Below are positions 23,802 through 32,247 of a stretch of 64,000 nucleotides of DNA, in pieces. A model generated the notes under the pieces. It searched no databases, was not told the origin of the DNA, and saw only the letters and a list, made by a program, of their open reading frames with translations. The DNA comes from Spirochaetota bacterium. GTDB lineage: Bacteria; Spirochaetota; UBA4802; JAFGDQ01. Where the stretch lies: positions 75,214 through 139,213 of the forward strand of contig JAFGDQ010000019.1 in the NCBI GenBank assembly GCA_016932015.1, given 5' to 3'. The translations under genes were made by a program, and so were the position numbers. Each line of letters opens with the position of its first letter. Position 1 is the first letter of the stretch.

Positions 23802-24701
23802 TTATATATTTAAAATCAGATTATAAAATTCTTCAAGGCCGTTAAGGACTTTCTGATGCACTTCTGCAGGATTAACTTTATTATCAAACTCCGCATTTTT
23901 TAGCATTTTTTCCGCGGCCTGTTCAGCATCATTAGAGTTAAGCTTGCCGGATTCTCCTAAATTGATCAGGTTAAATTTATTTTTTATAAGATCCGTAAGA
24001 TCCGAATGATAGTCTGAAGGATTTATTGTTATTAATCCGCATCCGGAAATGAGTCCTTCATAAAGTGTTATTCCGAAATGGGAAACAAGTATTTTTGAGG
24101 AAAGCAGTACGTCCGCGTAAGAATTGCTCATGGGAATTTTTTTTTCATTTGTCCGGAGATATGATTTTTTTCCGCACAGCATCGCAAAGTTTGATTTTTC
24201 CGGCAGTATTGATATCAGAAAATCTATATATTCTTCTTCTGCCGAGTTGCCGGGATAAACAGAAAAATCAATATTTTTATTTATAATTCTTTTTTTCAAA
24301 TTTTCCAGAGACTTAAGAAAATTAAAACCGTAGATGTAACTATTAAATTTCAGGCTTTTTTCATGGGGTTTTAAGTTCGGCAGAATATCAATGATATAAT
24401 CGGCTTTTTCCGCACCTGGTCCGTTATCGTCAATACAAACTATTTTTCCTGTCTTTTTTAATTGAATAATTTCATCTGTTTCGGAATCGCGCATGTCCCG
24501 GATTATTATCTCAGGAGAGAAATCAATTGTATTCTTTAAATATGGCTTTAGTTCATCCGGGAATGTGTCCGGAACATCATCTGATACAATATAGGCTTTT
24601 AGTTTTTTATTTGCGTTAAGATACCAGGCGAGTGAACACATTCGCTGAATATGCCCCATGCCGAGACTGGTGTTGTAGCATGTTTTTAACGCAATAATCA
24701 T
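23802..24701 (-). CDS. PseG-like nucleotide-sugar hydrolase / glycosyltransferase
   Basis: 299 aa, GT-B-like. The N-terminus SLGMGHIQRMCSLAWYL carries His17 at the position of the PseG catalytic base, and VCIDDNGPG, YADVLLSSKILVSHFGITLYEGLISGCGLITI match the second half of PseG. PseG removes UDP from the altrose intermediate of pseudaminic acid. Its start overlaps the spsF stop by 4 bp (translational coupling). It is last of the minus-strand operon and is convergent with the acylase gene, 8 bp apart. The exact sugar is uncertain. Confidence 0.72.
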   Translation of the reverse strand: MIIALKTCYNTSLGMGHIQRMCSLAWYLNANKKLKAYIVSDDVPDTFPDELKPYLKNTIDFSPEIIIRDMRDSETDEIIQLKKTGKIVCIDDNGPGAEKADYIIDILPNLKPHEKSLKFNSYIYGFNFLKSLENLKKRIINKNIDFSVYPGNSAEEEYIDFLISILPEKSNFAMLCGKKSYLRTNEKKIPMSNSYADVLLSSKILVSHFGITLYEGLISGCGLITINPSDYHSDLTDLIKNKFNLINLGESGKLNSNDAEQAAEKMLKNAEFDNKVNPAEVHQKVLNGLEEFYNLILNI

Positions 24702-25471
24702 TGAGAGGATGAAGTGGCAAGACGCTGTTTTATTTCACTGTTGATCTTTAAGATTTCCGGGTGTTCATTAACATAGTCAAGGACGTCTGATAGGGGGAAA
24801 TGGGATTCTGTAAACAGATTGTCATATATTATTTTTGCCAGATCGTAATCTTCCTGTGTGTCCACTGTTAGCCTTAACTTTTCAGGTACTTTTTTTAACG
24901 ATACAGGCGGCCTTTGAATTGAAAAAAGTTCCGGATGTTCTTTTATGAAAGGAGTAACATGTTCAAAATGATAGGGTTCGGAACTCATGTTATATGCTTC
25001 ATCAAGGGCTTGTTTCTTAATAACTTCAACAGCTGTTCCTAAAGGAAGATTGGCAAGAGCACATAAATCGAAATTTGACTCAAGAGCAATATCTACTATC
25101 ATCGAAGCATAATCAACATCAGTAAAAGGATTGTCTCCTGTGATTCTGACGATATAATCTCCGGCAAATTCCTCTGAAGCCAGGTAATACCTTTCAAGAA
25201 CATTTGTTTCCGATCCGGAATATGTTTCAATTCCCAGTGATGATGCGAGATCAATCAGTGGACGGTTCTCATTAAGGGAACCTGTTGCCAGAACAACCTT
25301 GTCAACATGCTCGATTAATTTTGATCTTTCAATTACATGTGCTAAAATAGGTTTGCCTGCAAGCTCGAGCATAGCTTTGCCGGGCAGTCTTTTGGACTGC
25401 ATTCTTGACTGTATAATTGCAGTAACGGCAGGTTTAATCTTTCGGCCGTTTACTTTACCGTTAAGAGTCAT
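24698..25471 (-). CDS. spsF: SpsF-type cytidylyltransferase
   Basis: 257 aa. Nucleotide-binding signature AIIQSRMQSKRLPGKAMLELAGKPILAHVIER (17-48) and the catalytic-site motif DYIVRITGDNPFTD. These enzymes activate a sugar acid as CMP derivative for surface polysaccharide or flagellin glycans. Ribosome site gagga. It overlaps the PseG-like gene by 4 bp and lies 23 bp after the spiro-SPASM gene, whose N-terminal domain is a degenerate relative of this protein. Confidence 0.85.
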   Translation of the reverse strand: MTLNGKVNGRKIKPAVTAIIQSRMQSKRLPGKAMLELAGKPILAHVIERSKLIEHVDKVVLATGSLNENRPLIDLASSLGIETYSGSETNVLERYYLASEEFAGDYIVRITGDNPFTDVDYASMIVDIALESNFDLCALANLPLGTAVEVIKKQALDEAYNMSSEPYHFEHVTPFIKEHPELFSIQRPPVSLKKVPEKLRLTVDTQEDYDLAKIIYDNLFTESHFPLSDVLDYVNEHPEILKINSEIKQRLATSSSQ

Positions 25472-25494: not shown

Positions 25495-26970
25495 TTAGAG
25501 ATTGAAAGTATACCACTCATTGCATGACTGGCAGTCAGGACTGGTTTCGTAGGATTGCCTGTAGTCGTTTAAAAATTTGTCTTTAGACCCGGTAAACAGT
25601 TCTTCAATGGATTCATTGTTAAGGTTTCCTCTGGCATAGTCTCCATTTACGTCCTGTTTGCAGAAAGTGACTGTGCCGTCAGAAAGTACATTCAGATCAC
25701 GCTGAAGATGCCAGCAGGGAGTCCTTTCCAGAGGTGTAAGATCCGAATAATTTCTGTCCTGAATTTTCCCCAGATAAGTATTCTGTTTCTGAAGAATTAT
25801 CGGGATTTTATACTTTTCCCAGAAATCATAGAATCTGTCCAGAAAAGCTTCTGTTTCATTAATTTTCATAATCTGAATATATATATTATTATCTGTTGTA
25901 ATGTTTTCTTTTATTGAAATTATATTTTTAAACACAATATCAAAATAGTCTTTATTGTGGATTGCCGAATATGTTTCACTGTCCAGCCCGTTAATATTAA
26001 ATACTATCCTGATACGTTCATCATTATTGTTAACAATATAATTCTTAAAATTCGTATCGGCAAGTATTCCGTTCGTTTCTATAACGATGTTCTGAACCTT
26101 ATCATTCCTTGCCAGTTCCAGAAATTCATAGAAATTTTTATGCATCAAAGGTTCGCCGGAACCGCCGAAACAGACAGAATACGGAAGCTTAAAAGTTTCC
26201 ATATCCTTCAGAATCTTCTTAAAAAGATCAATCCCCATATCCGGACGTTTCCGCTGCAGGGTGTTTCTGTAGCAGAAGAGACAATCAAGCATGCAGCTCC
26301 CGGTAAGCTCGATTTCCAGATAAGATGGGCATAAGTAAAGAACCCCTGGATTTTTGTCAATTATTTCTTTCACTTCTGAATATCGCGGAATTCTGCCTGC
26401 AATGTCGACAATGTTTTCCATTATACGAATTTCCCTTGGATTTCCGGATCTGAATGCAAGTCTTTTATTCCTGATGTCAGGAGCCTTGTAGAATAACTCG
26501 ACATCAAATTTATTGATATTGGATCTTATGACCTGGGCAAGAGGCAGAGTTTTTTCTGCCTGTTCTGGAATTGCGTTTATAAGCTCTTTTGAAATAATTT
26601 CGCAGGAGAAACCCTGGGGAAGGTTTTCAGAATATGTAAATTCCGCAAGATATTTAGTATGTACGTCGATCATCTCTGAAATTATTTTAATATCTATGAA
26701 TGGAGAATCGCAGAGTATTTTAACAATATGATCTGCTGTGGATTTTGCAAAAATTTCTTTCCAGAAAGAGACATCATCTTTGTCCTTCCTGAAGTATATT
26801 TCTGAATCTGTATTCCCGGAGAAATCCTCAGGTGCGGAATATTTTATATCAGAAAAAATACCTCCGGACTGCAGTCTTTCTTTAAGTTCACGGGGAAGGT
26901 ATTTTCCTGAAAAATTAAGGTTAGAATCTTTTATATCATTATCAATATATAATAATGCAATTATATTCAA
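25495..26970 (-). CDS. Spiro-SPASM radical SAM protein with degenerate SpsF-like N-domain
   Basis: 491 aa from a TTG start supported by ggagg 5 bases ahead. Residues 75-165 align with SpsF (DHIVKILCDSPFIDIKIISEMID against DYIVRITGDNPFTDVDYASMIVD) but lack the SRMxSxRLPGK nucleotide signature. Radical SAM core: CMLDCLFC with Cys226, 230, 233, then CFGGSGEPLM. C-terminal SPASM region: TPCWHL, VTFCKQD, CQSCNEW, for an auxiliary iron-sulfur cluster. SPASM enzymes modify peptides, proteins or sugars by radical chemistry. I know this architecture as the spiro-SPASM family of spirochaetes. Substrate unknown. Confidence 0.85.
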   Translation of the reverse strand: MNIIALLYIDNDIKDSNLNFSGKYLPRELKERLQSGGIFSDIKYSAPEDFSGNTDSEIYFRKDKDDVSFWKEIFAKSTADHIVKILCDSPFIDIKIISEMIDVHTKYLAEFTYSENLPQGFSCEIISKELINAIPEQAEKTLPLAQVIRSNINKFDVELFYKAPDIRNKRLAFRSGNPREIRIMENIVDIAGRIPRYSEVKEIIDKNPGVLYLCPSYLEIELTGSCMLDCLFCYRNTLQRKRPDMGIDLFKKILKDMETFKLPYSVCFGGSGEPLMHKNFYEFLELARNDKVQNIVIETNGILADTNFKNYIVNNNDERIRIVFNINGLDSETYSAIHNKDYFDIVFKNIISIKENITTDNNIYIQIMKINETEAFLDRFYDFWEKYKIPIILQKQNTYLGKIQDRNYSDLTPLERTPCWHLQRDLNVLSDGTVTFCKQDVNGDYARGNLNNESIEELFTGSKDKFLNDYRQSYETSPDCQSCNEWYTFNL

Positions 26971-30251: not shown

Positions 30252-31490
30252 TTAAAAAAGAACCCCTGCAAAGTTATCGATTTCTTTCAATATTTTCTCC
30301 AGCATATTTACATTGTTATAATCCAGTTGATTATTATCTTTTTTAAGTTTTAAATTATTCAAATTTTTAAACAGGCAATTTATAGCACTGCCGAACCCGA
30401 GATCATCATTCATTTTCTCTTCAAAATCTTTTTTTATAAAATTTATCTCTTCCGTTATTCCGGGTGCGGATTTTTTTGACGAATTTTTTACACTCAGGAT
30501 TTTTCTTACCAGGCTTCTGATGGAGTCCAGGTAGTCAGATGTTTCATTAAATTTTTTATCAGTAAGGTTTAATTTTTTCCTGTAATGCGTATAAAGCAGA
30601 AAAAATCTCAGGTGATAAGGCTTGTGTCTGTTTCTGAGCATATCTTCAGGATAAAGAATATTGCCTCTGCTTTTTGACATTGATTTGCCGTTCGCAATTA
30701 AATGTTCGCCGTGTAAATAGTATTTCGCGTATTCTTTCCCTGAAATCGACTCAATAATTGCAATATTATAGTCATGATGCCTGAAAATATTGTCTATTCC
30801 GCCGCAGTTAATATCAATACTGTAACCGAGATGCTCGGTGATAATTGCCGGATCCTGAATATTCCATGAAGGCCTGCCTTTTCCGATTTCCGTATCCCAG
30901 ACAGTTATATCACCTTCTTTGTATCCGTGCCATAAAATGAAATCCCCCCTGTTCCATCGCCTGCCGTTATATGTATCCTTTTTAAAACGAACTTTTGTTT
31001 TCGGCCACTTGCTCATGTCAAGTTTAAAAAGTTTGCCGAACCCATTGAACTTGAGAGGGTCAAAAAATATATCGCCATTATATTTGTACGCATGTCCGCT
31101 TTGAAGAAGTTTTTTAATAAGAAGTACTGTCTGTTTTTTACCGGTTGAGGAACGGGGTACAGGATTCGGCAGCTCAATTCCGAGCAGTTTTGCTTCCGAG
31201 AAAAATCTTTTTGCTATATCATCTGTTAAGGCATCAACCTTTTCACCTTTTGTTTTTGCTTCTGTTATTGTCTTGTCCTCTATATCAGTCATGATTGTTG
31301 TGTATTTGACTTTATATTTAAGATGCTTTAAATATTTTATCAAAAGGTCTTCATAAAGAAATGTTCTGTAATTTCCGATGTGGGGCCTTCTGTAAATAGA
31401 CGGGCCGCAGGAAAAGACGATAGCTTTTCCTGGTTGAATAGGTTTGAAAATTTCCTTTGAACGGGACATTGTATTATATAGTTTAAACAT
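30252..31490 (-). CDS. Cysteinyl-tRNA synthetase paralogue with altered zinc site
   Basis: 412 aa. Class I synthetase fold of the CysRS family: CGPSIYRRPHIGN (28-40), NCGGIDNIFRHHD (228-240), GKSMSKSRGN (268-277), and a DALR-like helical end (MNDDLGFGSAINCLF). Of the four zinc ligands in E. coli CysRS, Cys28 and His238 are kept, but Cys209 becomes Asp213 (WNIQDPAI for WHIECSAM) and Glu238 becomes Asn242. The first K of KMSKS is Ser270. It stops after the DALR region, about 50 residues short of CysRS and as long as MshC. It may ligate a different amino acid or a non-tRNA acceptor. Confidence 0.8.
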   Translation of the reverse strand: MFKLYNTMSRSKEIFKPIQPGKAIVFSCGPSIYRRPHIGNYRTFLYEDLLIKYLKHLKYKVKYTTIMTDIEDKTITEAKTKGEKVDALTDDIAKRFFSEAKLLGIELPNPVPRSSTGKKQTVLLIKKLLQSGHAYKYNGDIFFDPLKFNGFGKLFKLDMSKWPKTKVRFKKDTYNGRRWNRGDFILWHGYKEGDITVWDTEIGKGRPSWNIQDPAIITEHLGYSIDINCGGIDNIFRHHDYNIAIIESISGKEYAKYYLHGEHLIANGKSMSKSRGNILYPEDMLRNRHKPYHLRFFLLYTHYRKKLNLTDKKFNETSDYLDSIRSLVRKILSVKNSSKKSAPGITEEINFIKKDFEEKMNDDLGFGSAINCLFKNLNNLKLKKDNNQLDYNNVNMLEKILKEIDNFAGVLF

Positions 31491-31572: not shown

Positions 31573-32247
31573 TTATGCCATCATCTGATTTGCCTTATTT
31601 ATTAAATCCTTCATAAGAGTTATTGTCTTCTTATAATCTTCTGTGTTAAAAATACCGGATCCTGAAACAAAAACATTAGCTCCTGCTTTGGCGATTTTTT
31701 CAATGTTATCGGTATTTATTCCGCCGTCTACATTGAGTTCAATATCAAAATTGTTTTTATCTATCAGAATCCTGAGAAGTTCGATTTTCTGTATGGTATT
31801 TTCAATAAATTTCTGACCACCGAAGCCGGGGTTTACGCTCATAATAAGTACCATATCAACAAATTCAAGTATGTAGTCAAGCGAGCTTAACGAAGTGGAC
31901 GGATTTAATGAAACACCTGCCTTTACTCCCTTTTCCTTTATGTATGTAATTGTACGGTTAAGGTGCGGGCATGTTTCAGCATGAACTGTCAGAATATCAC
32001 TTCCTGCTTCTATAAAATCATCCAGATATCTGTCAGGGTCGCTTATCATCAGGTGAACATCAAGCGGAAGTTTTGTAACTTTCTTTGCCGCTTTTACAAT
32101 TAATGGACCTATCGTTATATTTGGGACAAAGTGCCCGTCCATTACGTCAATATGTATGTAATCAGCTCCTGCTTCTTCGATTGCCTTGATTTCTTCACCA
32201 AGCCTGCTGAAATCTGCTGAAAGAATTGAAGGGGAGATTTTTCCCAT
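31573..32247 (-). CDS. rpe: Ribulose-phosphate 3-epimerase
   Basis: 224 aa, full length. TIM barrel with all signatures: ISPSILSADFSRLGEEI at the N-terminus, IHIDVMDGHFVPNITIG, LPLDVHLMI, VLIMSVNPGFGGQKFI, LNVDGGINTDNI, FVSGSGIF. Interconverts ribulose-5-phosphate and xylulose-5-phosphate in the pentose phosphate pathway. Ribosome site ggaaa. About 80 bp ahead of the CysRS paralogue. Confidence 0.96.
   Translation of the reverse strand: MGKISPSILSADFSRLGEEIKAIEEAGADYIHIDVMDGHFVPNITIGPLIVKAAKKVTKLPLDVHLMISDPDRYLDDFIEAGSDILTVHAETCPHLNRTITYIKEKGVKAGVSLNPSTSLSSLDYILEFVDMVLIMSVNPGFGGQKFIENTIQKIELLRILIDKNNFDIELNVDGGINTDNIEKIAKAGANVFVSGSGIFNTEDYKKTITLMKDLINKANQMMA

Follow-up and report, generated by a model that had tools for sequence, protein, structure and literature searches.

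Cysteinyl-tRNA synthetase (CysRS) is the textbook case of an enzyme that chooses its amino acid through a metal and without editing. The connecting domain of class I synthetases faces the acceptor end, and a truncated member of this class, the GluRS-derived GluQ-RS (YadB), modifies a tRNA nucleoside. MshC, the cysteine ligase of mycothiol biosynthesis, binds zinc through Cys43, Cys231, and His256 together with the substrate thiol, and holds the alpha-amino group of its substrate with Thr46, Thr83, and the main chain of Gly44 (PMC9736012). The CysRS* enzymes of Desulfobacterales (Mukai 2017, as reviewed in PMC7609411 and PMC9437257) charge cysteine on a linked selC* tRNA. In the accessible literature, a search for CysRS-like families returned only MshC and CysRS*, and neither there nor in NCBIfam was a description found of the family considered here, which is apparently undescribed and previously unnamed.

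The zinc site of a CysRS-like protein

The window, a 64,000-nucleotide stretch of DNA from a Spirochaetota bacterium, encodes a CysRS-like protein of 412 residues whose ATG start codon is preceded, a few bases upstream, by a GGAAAG stretch. The protein scores 238 bits against the Pfam profile of the CysRS catalytic domain (PF01406), 300.8 bits against the NCBIfam cysS model (TIGR00435; below the cut-off of 340), and 157.6 bits against that of MshC (TIGR03447; far below the cut-off of 485.1). Its features are listed below, with counts that refer to 68 aligned members of the family and to 20 canonical CysRS that include the E. coli enzyme.

30252-31490, minus strand: CysRS-like paralogue, complete ORF of 412 residues (PF01406, 238 bits)
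31407-31409, minus strand: Cys28, kept zinc-ligand position (68/68 in the family)
31371-31382, minus strand: HIGN (HIGH-type) motif, residues 37-40, placed by alignment
30924-30980, minus strand: family-specific connecting-domain block KDTYNGRRWNRGDFILWHG, residues 171-189, two residues longer than in canonical CysRS (family alignment)
30852-30866, minus strand: WNIQD, residues 209-213, with Asp213 in place of zinc ligand Cys209 (68/68, versus WHxEC in 20/20 canonical)
30804-30806, minus strand: Cys229, typical of the family (G225 in E. coli; 66/68, Ala in further lineages)
30765-30782, minus strand: RHHDYN, residues 237-242, with His238 kept and Asn242 in place of Glu238 (R in 67/68, HHDY in 68/68)
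30669-30683, minus strand: SMSKS (KMSKS-type) loop, residues 270-274 (M271, K273, and N277 in 68/68; S272 in 67/68)

When the protein is aligned with three CysRS structures, among them the E. coli enzyme (1li5), and with 19 canonical CysRS, the whole zinc-site block is free of gaps. Cys28 of CysRS corresponds to Cys28, Cys209 to Asp213, His234 to His238, and Glu238 to Asn242, and the WHIECSAM segment reads WNIQDPAI; realignment restores none of the replaced ligands from nearby residues. An earlier note on this DNA had assigned these residues in the same way, including the retained Cys28, HIGN, and paired histidines, and its reading is correct. Its statement that two of four zinc ligands are replaced holds with CysRS as the reference, whereas with respect to MshC the relevant change affects one of three, because MshC has three zinc-binding residues and reads HHEYS, with Ser where CysRS has Glu238. 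For the same reason, the loss of Glu238 is compatible with cysteine specificity. Judged from the alignment, the telling change is that of Cys209 to Asp together with its surrounding shell, and not the loss of Glu238.

The alpha-amino-binding residues Thr68 and Gly29, the HIGH and KMSKS motifs, Trp209, Asp233, and Arg295 are all kept in the sequence alignment, in line with the view of the note that the adenylation machinery is intact. An AlphaFold2 model computed on the family alignment (pLDDT 88.9, pTM 0.90) finds its best fold matches in CysRS (8qhp, TM 0.87/0.88; 1li5, TM 0.83/0.88), followed by MshC (3c8z, TM 0.78/0.81) and then MetRS. The protein has no anticodon part, as had been noted: the alignment stops where the anticodon-binding domain would start, and family members are about 393-457 residues long versus 470-481 for canonical CysRS. 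The likeness to MshC that was drawn on this basis extends to size only: in the tree the two do not cluster, though the long branch of MshC makes its own position unsure. The genome of the window (G000; 4.4 Mb, 91% complete) also contains a second, normal cysS (G000:C84; 476-477 residues) that has WHIEC, HHENE, and all ligands. The 412-residue protein is thus not the only CysRS of its genome, and its gene is the paralogue that had been suspected.

Distribution and signature of the family

Copies at 50-65% identity occur in 12 genomes, the window genome included, among 59 relatives. Two family peptides, searched against 84,980 genomes, gave 309 related stretches. The 80 that were kept derive from Spirochaetota, Desulfobacterota (Syntrophobacteraceae, Desulfobacteraceae, and Desulfobulbaceae), Bathyarchaeia, Methanoperedens, ANME-1, and ANME-2. 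A pattern search with the DNA signature WNxQD-N63..75-RHHDY detected copies in three groups: the Methanoperedens phylum (8 of 247 genomes), the Bathyarchaeal class (32 of 257), and Desulfobacterota (10 of 297). Reversed-pattern controls gave zero matches. Plasmid records contained ordinary cysS relatives only, all below 60% identity. The family is thinly scattered over oxygen-avoiding bacteria and archaea, the latter being Bathyarchaeia and Methanosarcinales/ANME-type lineages, mostly with a normal CysRS gene elsewhere in the genome.

The phylogenetic tree unites the family in one clade (support 100/100), the long stem of which measures 1.62 changes per column. Its closest relative in the tree sample is an archaeal CysRS-like protein of 421 residues (99/93), the product of the third CysRS-type gene of the uncultured archaeon LFW-280_3_1 (G398; L156/L232 289-1554), which adjoins a gene for an S19e-like ribosomal protein. 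Variants were also seen among other CysRS relatives. Two archaeal CysRS of canonical length (L151 in G393 and L152 in G398) read HNQNE and HHQNE in place of HHENE, next to the zinc ligands. In Desulfoferrobacter suflitae (G394; L164 547-2877), a 776-residue fusion joins cysteine synthase to a degenerate CysRS that has lost HIGH and KMSKS and carries Ala for Cys209 and HLENI for HHENE; it is possibly a cysteine-synthase regulator or a tRNA sensor.

Residues Cys28, Trp209, Asn210, Gln212, Asp213, His238, His239, Asp240, and Tyr241 are invariant in the 68 aligned members, as are Trp162, Pro163, Tyr174, Trp179, and Asn180 of the connecting domain, in which D172, G182, D183, F184, and W187 are likewise present in 68/68; Arg237 is found in 67. 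The canonical set has His206, Glu208, Cys209, Pro233, Glu236, Asn237, and Glu238 in all 20 sequences. The pocket signature of the family relative to CysRS (H206 to N, E208 to Q, C209 to D, P233 to R, E236 to D, N237 to Y, and T31 to S) is invariant or nearly so and common to bacteria and archaea, whose members carry the family's own signature WNxQD...RHHDY alike. Position 242 is occupied by Asn in 50 members, Thr in 8, Ile in 6, Val in 3, and Ser in 1; the conserved trait at this position is therefore the loss of Glu, and Asn242 was rejected as a universal ligand. Pairs of close members have dN/dS values of 0.05-0.20, and the family is under strong purifying selection. The 412-residue protein is a member of a real, conserved CysRS-derived family and not an isolated mutant. 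Annotation by similarity could label such genes "cysteine--tRNA ligase" and thereby distort CysRS counts, for example in archaea that use only SepRS.

Substrate, acceptor, and genomic context

The earlier note considered a substrate other than cysteine likely. The family-wide rebuilding of the pocket speaks for this view; the loss of Glu238, to which it also appealed, proves little, and Cys28, Asp213, and His238, all universal in the family, could still hold a metal, so that use of cysteine with an altered metal is conceivable. Cys229, nearly invariant and the sole new conserved cysteine close by in the sequence, was considered as a replacement zinc ligand and rejected as a universal one, since it is Ala in several lineages (Methanoperedens, L175/L183, and G1067). 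In Bathyarchaeota bin1093 (L127, G698:C1:1117912-1118010), a gene that is otherwise complete has an in-frame TGA exactly at family position 229. Selenocysteine was rejected as its meaning, since this genome yielded no tRNA-Sec over the cut-off and no other copy was seen with TGA; a sequencing error or a lone pseudogene is likelier. As ThrRS illustrates, zinc can also serve in the recognition of hydroxyl and amino groups (PMC7373986), and by this analogy a serine- or diaminopropionate-like substrate would be one option among several.

We tentatively favor, at a probability of about 0.42, an active ligase that would adenylate a small L-alpha-amino acid, cysteine being the less likely choice, and transfer it to an anionic acceptor, most likely an RNA, that is not tRNA-Cys. 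The intact ATP-binding HIGH and KMSKS motifs and alpha-amino-binding residues, combined with a side-chain pocket rebuilt in a fixed way, support a non-cysteine ligase. Following formation of the aminoacyl-adenylate, for which a polar substrate side chain may contact Asp213 or a metal bound by Cys28, Asp213, and His238, the amino acid would pass via the connecting domain to an acceptor that bears negative charge and is not tRNA-Cys read by its anticodon. This acceptor would most likely be a tRNA acceptor end or, as for GluQ-RS, a tRNA nucleoside, and less likely a phosphorylated small molecule. Because the cysteine-sensing metal site is rebuilt, the product is probably a different small amino acid on something other than cysteine tRNA. 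It is possible, if doubtful, that these proteins make up a new class I ligase family in two domains of life that places a non-cysteine amino acid onto an RNA nucleoside or tRNA end, as an undescribed RNA modification or aminoacyl-RNA.

Only the connecting domain equals that of CysRS in its degree of conservation (mean pairwise identity 0.615 within the family and 0.610 within CysRS), every other region being less conserved in the family. It carries an average net charge of +3.7, against -3.6 in a canonical set drawn mostly from Spirochaetota. In five of six genome-matched pairs the family member has a pI of 8.9-9.6 versus 5.3-6.5 for the CysRS; the sixth, from a marine Spirochaete, is acidic (pI 5.48 versus 5.68 for CysRS). 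The basic, conserved connecting domain and the high pI favor an anionic acceptor such as RNA, short of proof, and the absence of the anticodon part makes ordinary anticodon-guided charging of tRNA-Cys unlikely. An ANME-1 genome (G396) contains a family member and a full-length SepRS with no match to canonical CysRS, in an incomplete genome in which absence is no proof; an incomplete Methanoperedenaceae genome (G399) contains a family member and a SepRS cut at a contig end, again with no canonical CysRS match. The ANME-1 case suggests that the role of the family is separable from that of CysRS.

The surroundings of the gene in the window are as follows.

31573-32247: rpe, on one flank of the 412-residue gene
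Other flank: convergent ORF of 100 residues
28018-29586: citramalate-synthase-like gene, beyond the 100-residue ORF

This gene order is kept in the nearest relative only; elsewhere the neighbors change from lineage to lineage. Gene calling and clustering covered the neighborhoods of 11 Spirochaetota loci and some 80 more, and a Pfam scan took in 132 proteins adjacent to the family gene at roughly 40 dereplicated loci. No family occurred in more than 3 of these proteins, and assignment of a function from an operon was rejected on this ground. ABC-2 transporter genes adjoin the family gene in several archaea (convergent) and in one Spirochaetota genus (codirectional), DinB lies near it in some Bathyarchaeia and Desulfobacterales, and some copies give the impression of lying close to DNA-repair genes (DinB, MutY-like, ExoIII, UvrC), which make up only a few of some 130 neighbors. 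A search of positions 20000-44000 of the window found no Rfam family, the window as a whole has no tRNA gene, and the tRNAs in the flanks of relatives are rare, unrelated elongators. The gene appears to work by itself, without a fixed partner. Elsewhere in the window, a radical SAM/SPASM protein with an N-terminal extension (25495-26970, minus strand) is encoded next to a cytidylyltransferase (24698-25471), which suggests a surface-sugar pathway.

Weighing of other explanations

Cysteine might still be activated, through a three-ligand Cys/Asp/His metal, and ligated to a small molecule to yield an unknown low-molecular-weight thiol in anaerobes. Three protein ligands suffice for MshC, which has Ser at the Glu238 position and shares with the family the Tyr after HH[ED]; moreover, peroxiredoxin genes occur close to the family gene, 43 bp downstream of it in Methanoperedens and, in some Bathyarchaeia, 8-18 bp upstream, and Syntrophobacteraceae have an OsmC fusion nearby. 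These neighbor links are, however, limited to single lineages, with no recurring Pfam family, and a neutral sugar would be a strange acceptor for an enzyme whose connecting domain is basic. The universal change of Cys209 to Asp, accompanied by changes in its neighbors H206 and E208, and the separate position of MshC, a single long branch, in the tree also count against this explanation, which we consider unlikely though deserving of weight. An enzyme of the CysRS* type, charging a selC* tRNA-Cys so that UGA is read as cysteine, would account for the missing anticodon domain, the altered connecting domain, and the presence in Desulfobacterales, all of which are described for CysRS* (PMC7609411, PMC9437257). 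Against this, CysRS* must use cysteine and is encoded alongside selC*/selB*, whereas the sole RNA found at twelve Desulfobacterota loci is one elongator tRNA-Met, 1.5 kb away; no selC* tRNA lies beside the gene in the window, the genome of which has a single, ordinary tRNA-Sec sequence at two overlapping contig ends, and the family extends to archaea. The selC* link was rejected, and an enzyme of this type is very improbable. The same tRNA-Sec sequence is found at G000:C10:2-90 and G000:C116:1-83, so that contigs C10 and C116 probably join there.

The altered zinc site and the lack of recurrent partner genes would also be expected of a pseudo-synthetase, which would have given up adenylate formation for a metal-binding or regulatory role; we hold this to be improbable, given that HIGH, KMSKS, Thr68, Trp209, Asp233, and Arg295 are intact under strong purifying selection, and that the degenerate cysteine synthase fusion, unlike the family, has lost HIGH and KMSKS. 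The slightest chance falls to a back-up CysRS for ordinary tRNA-Cys: CysRS is indeed the best fold and profile match, over the full length minus the tail, but a normal cysS is present, the anticodon domain is missing, the zinc site is changed in every member, and the ANME-1 genome with a family member still keeps SepRS for Cys-tRNA.

Among known systems, the family resembles CysRS (PF01406, TIGR00435) in fold over its whole length (TM 0.83-0.88 to 8qhp and 1li5) and shares HIGH, KMSKS, Cys28, Thr68, Trp205, His234, and Asp229 in CysRS numbering. It differs by substitution of Cys209 (Asp), Glu238 (Asn, Thr, Ile, Val, or Ser), His206 (Asn), Glu208 (Gln), and Pro233 (Arg), by a two-residue insertion and new conserved Trp residues in the connecting domain, by the basic character of the protein, and by the lack of an anticodon part. 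This rebuilt metal site on a CysRS scaffold, found from Spirochaetota to Bathyarchaeia and ANME, offers a ready test of how substrate specificity changes, and the family may lead to an unknown aminoacylated product in anaerobes. MshC is similar in its length of about 412 residues, its CysRS-type catalytic core without an anticodon part, the absence of Glu at the 238 position, and the Tyr after HH[ED]; it keeps Cys43, Cys231, and His256, whereas the family has Asp213 for the second Cys, and it lies elsewhere in the tree, as a single long branch whose own place is thus unsure. CysRS* is likewise a CysRS relative of anaerobes with no anticodon domain and an altered connecting domain; by its description, and not by sequence comparison, it is set apart by its charging of cysteine and its selC*/selB* linkage, neither selC* nor selB* being found with the family gene. 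The 421-residue archaeal sister protein (L156, G398) also lacks the anticodon part and has lost Glu238 (Val), but keeps WHIEC, with Cys209, and Gly at position 225. GluQ-RS is a likeness in mode of working only, as a truncated class I synthetase without an anticodon domain that occurs alongside its parent synthetase; it derives from GluRS and not CysRS, and its substrate and target are known.
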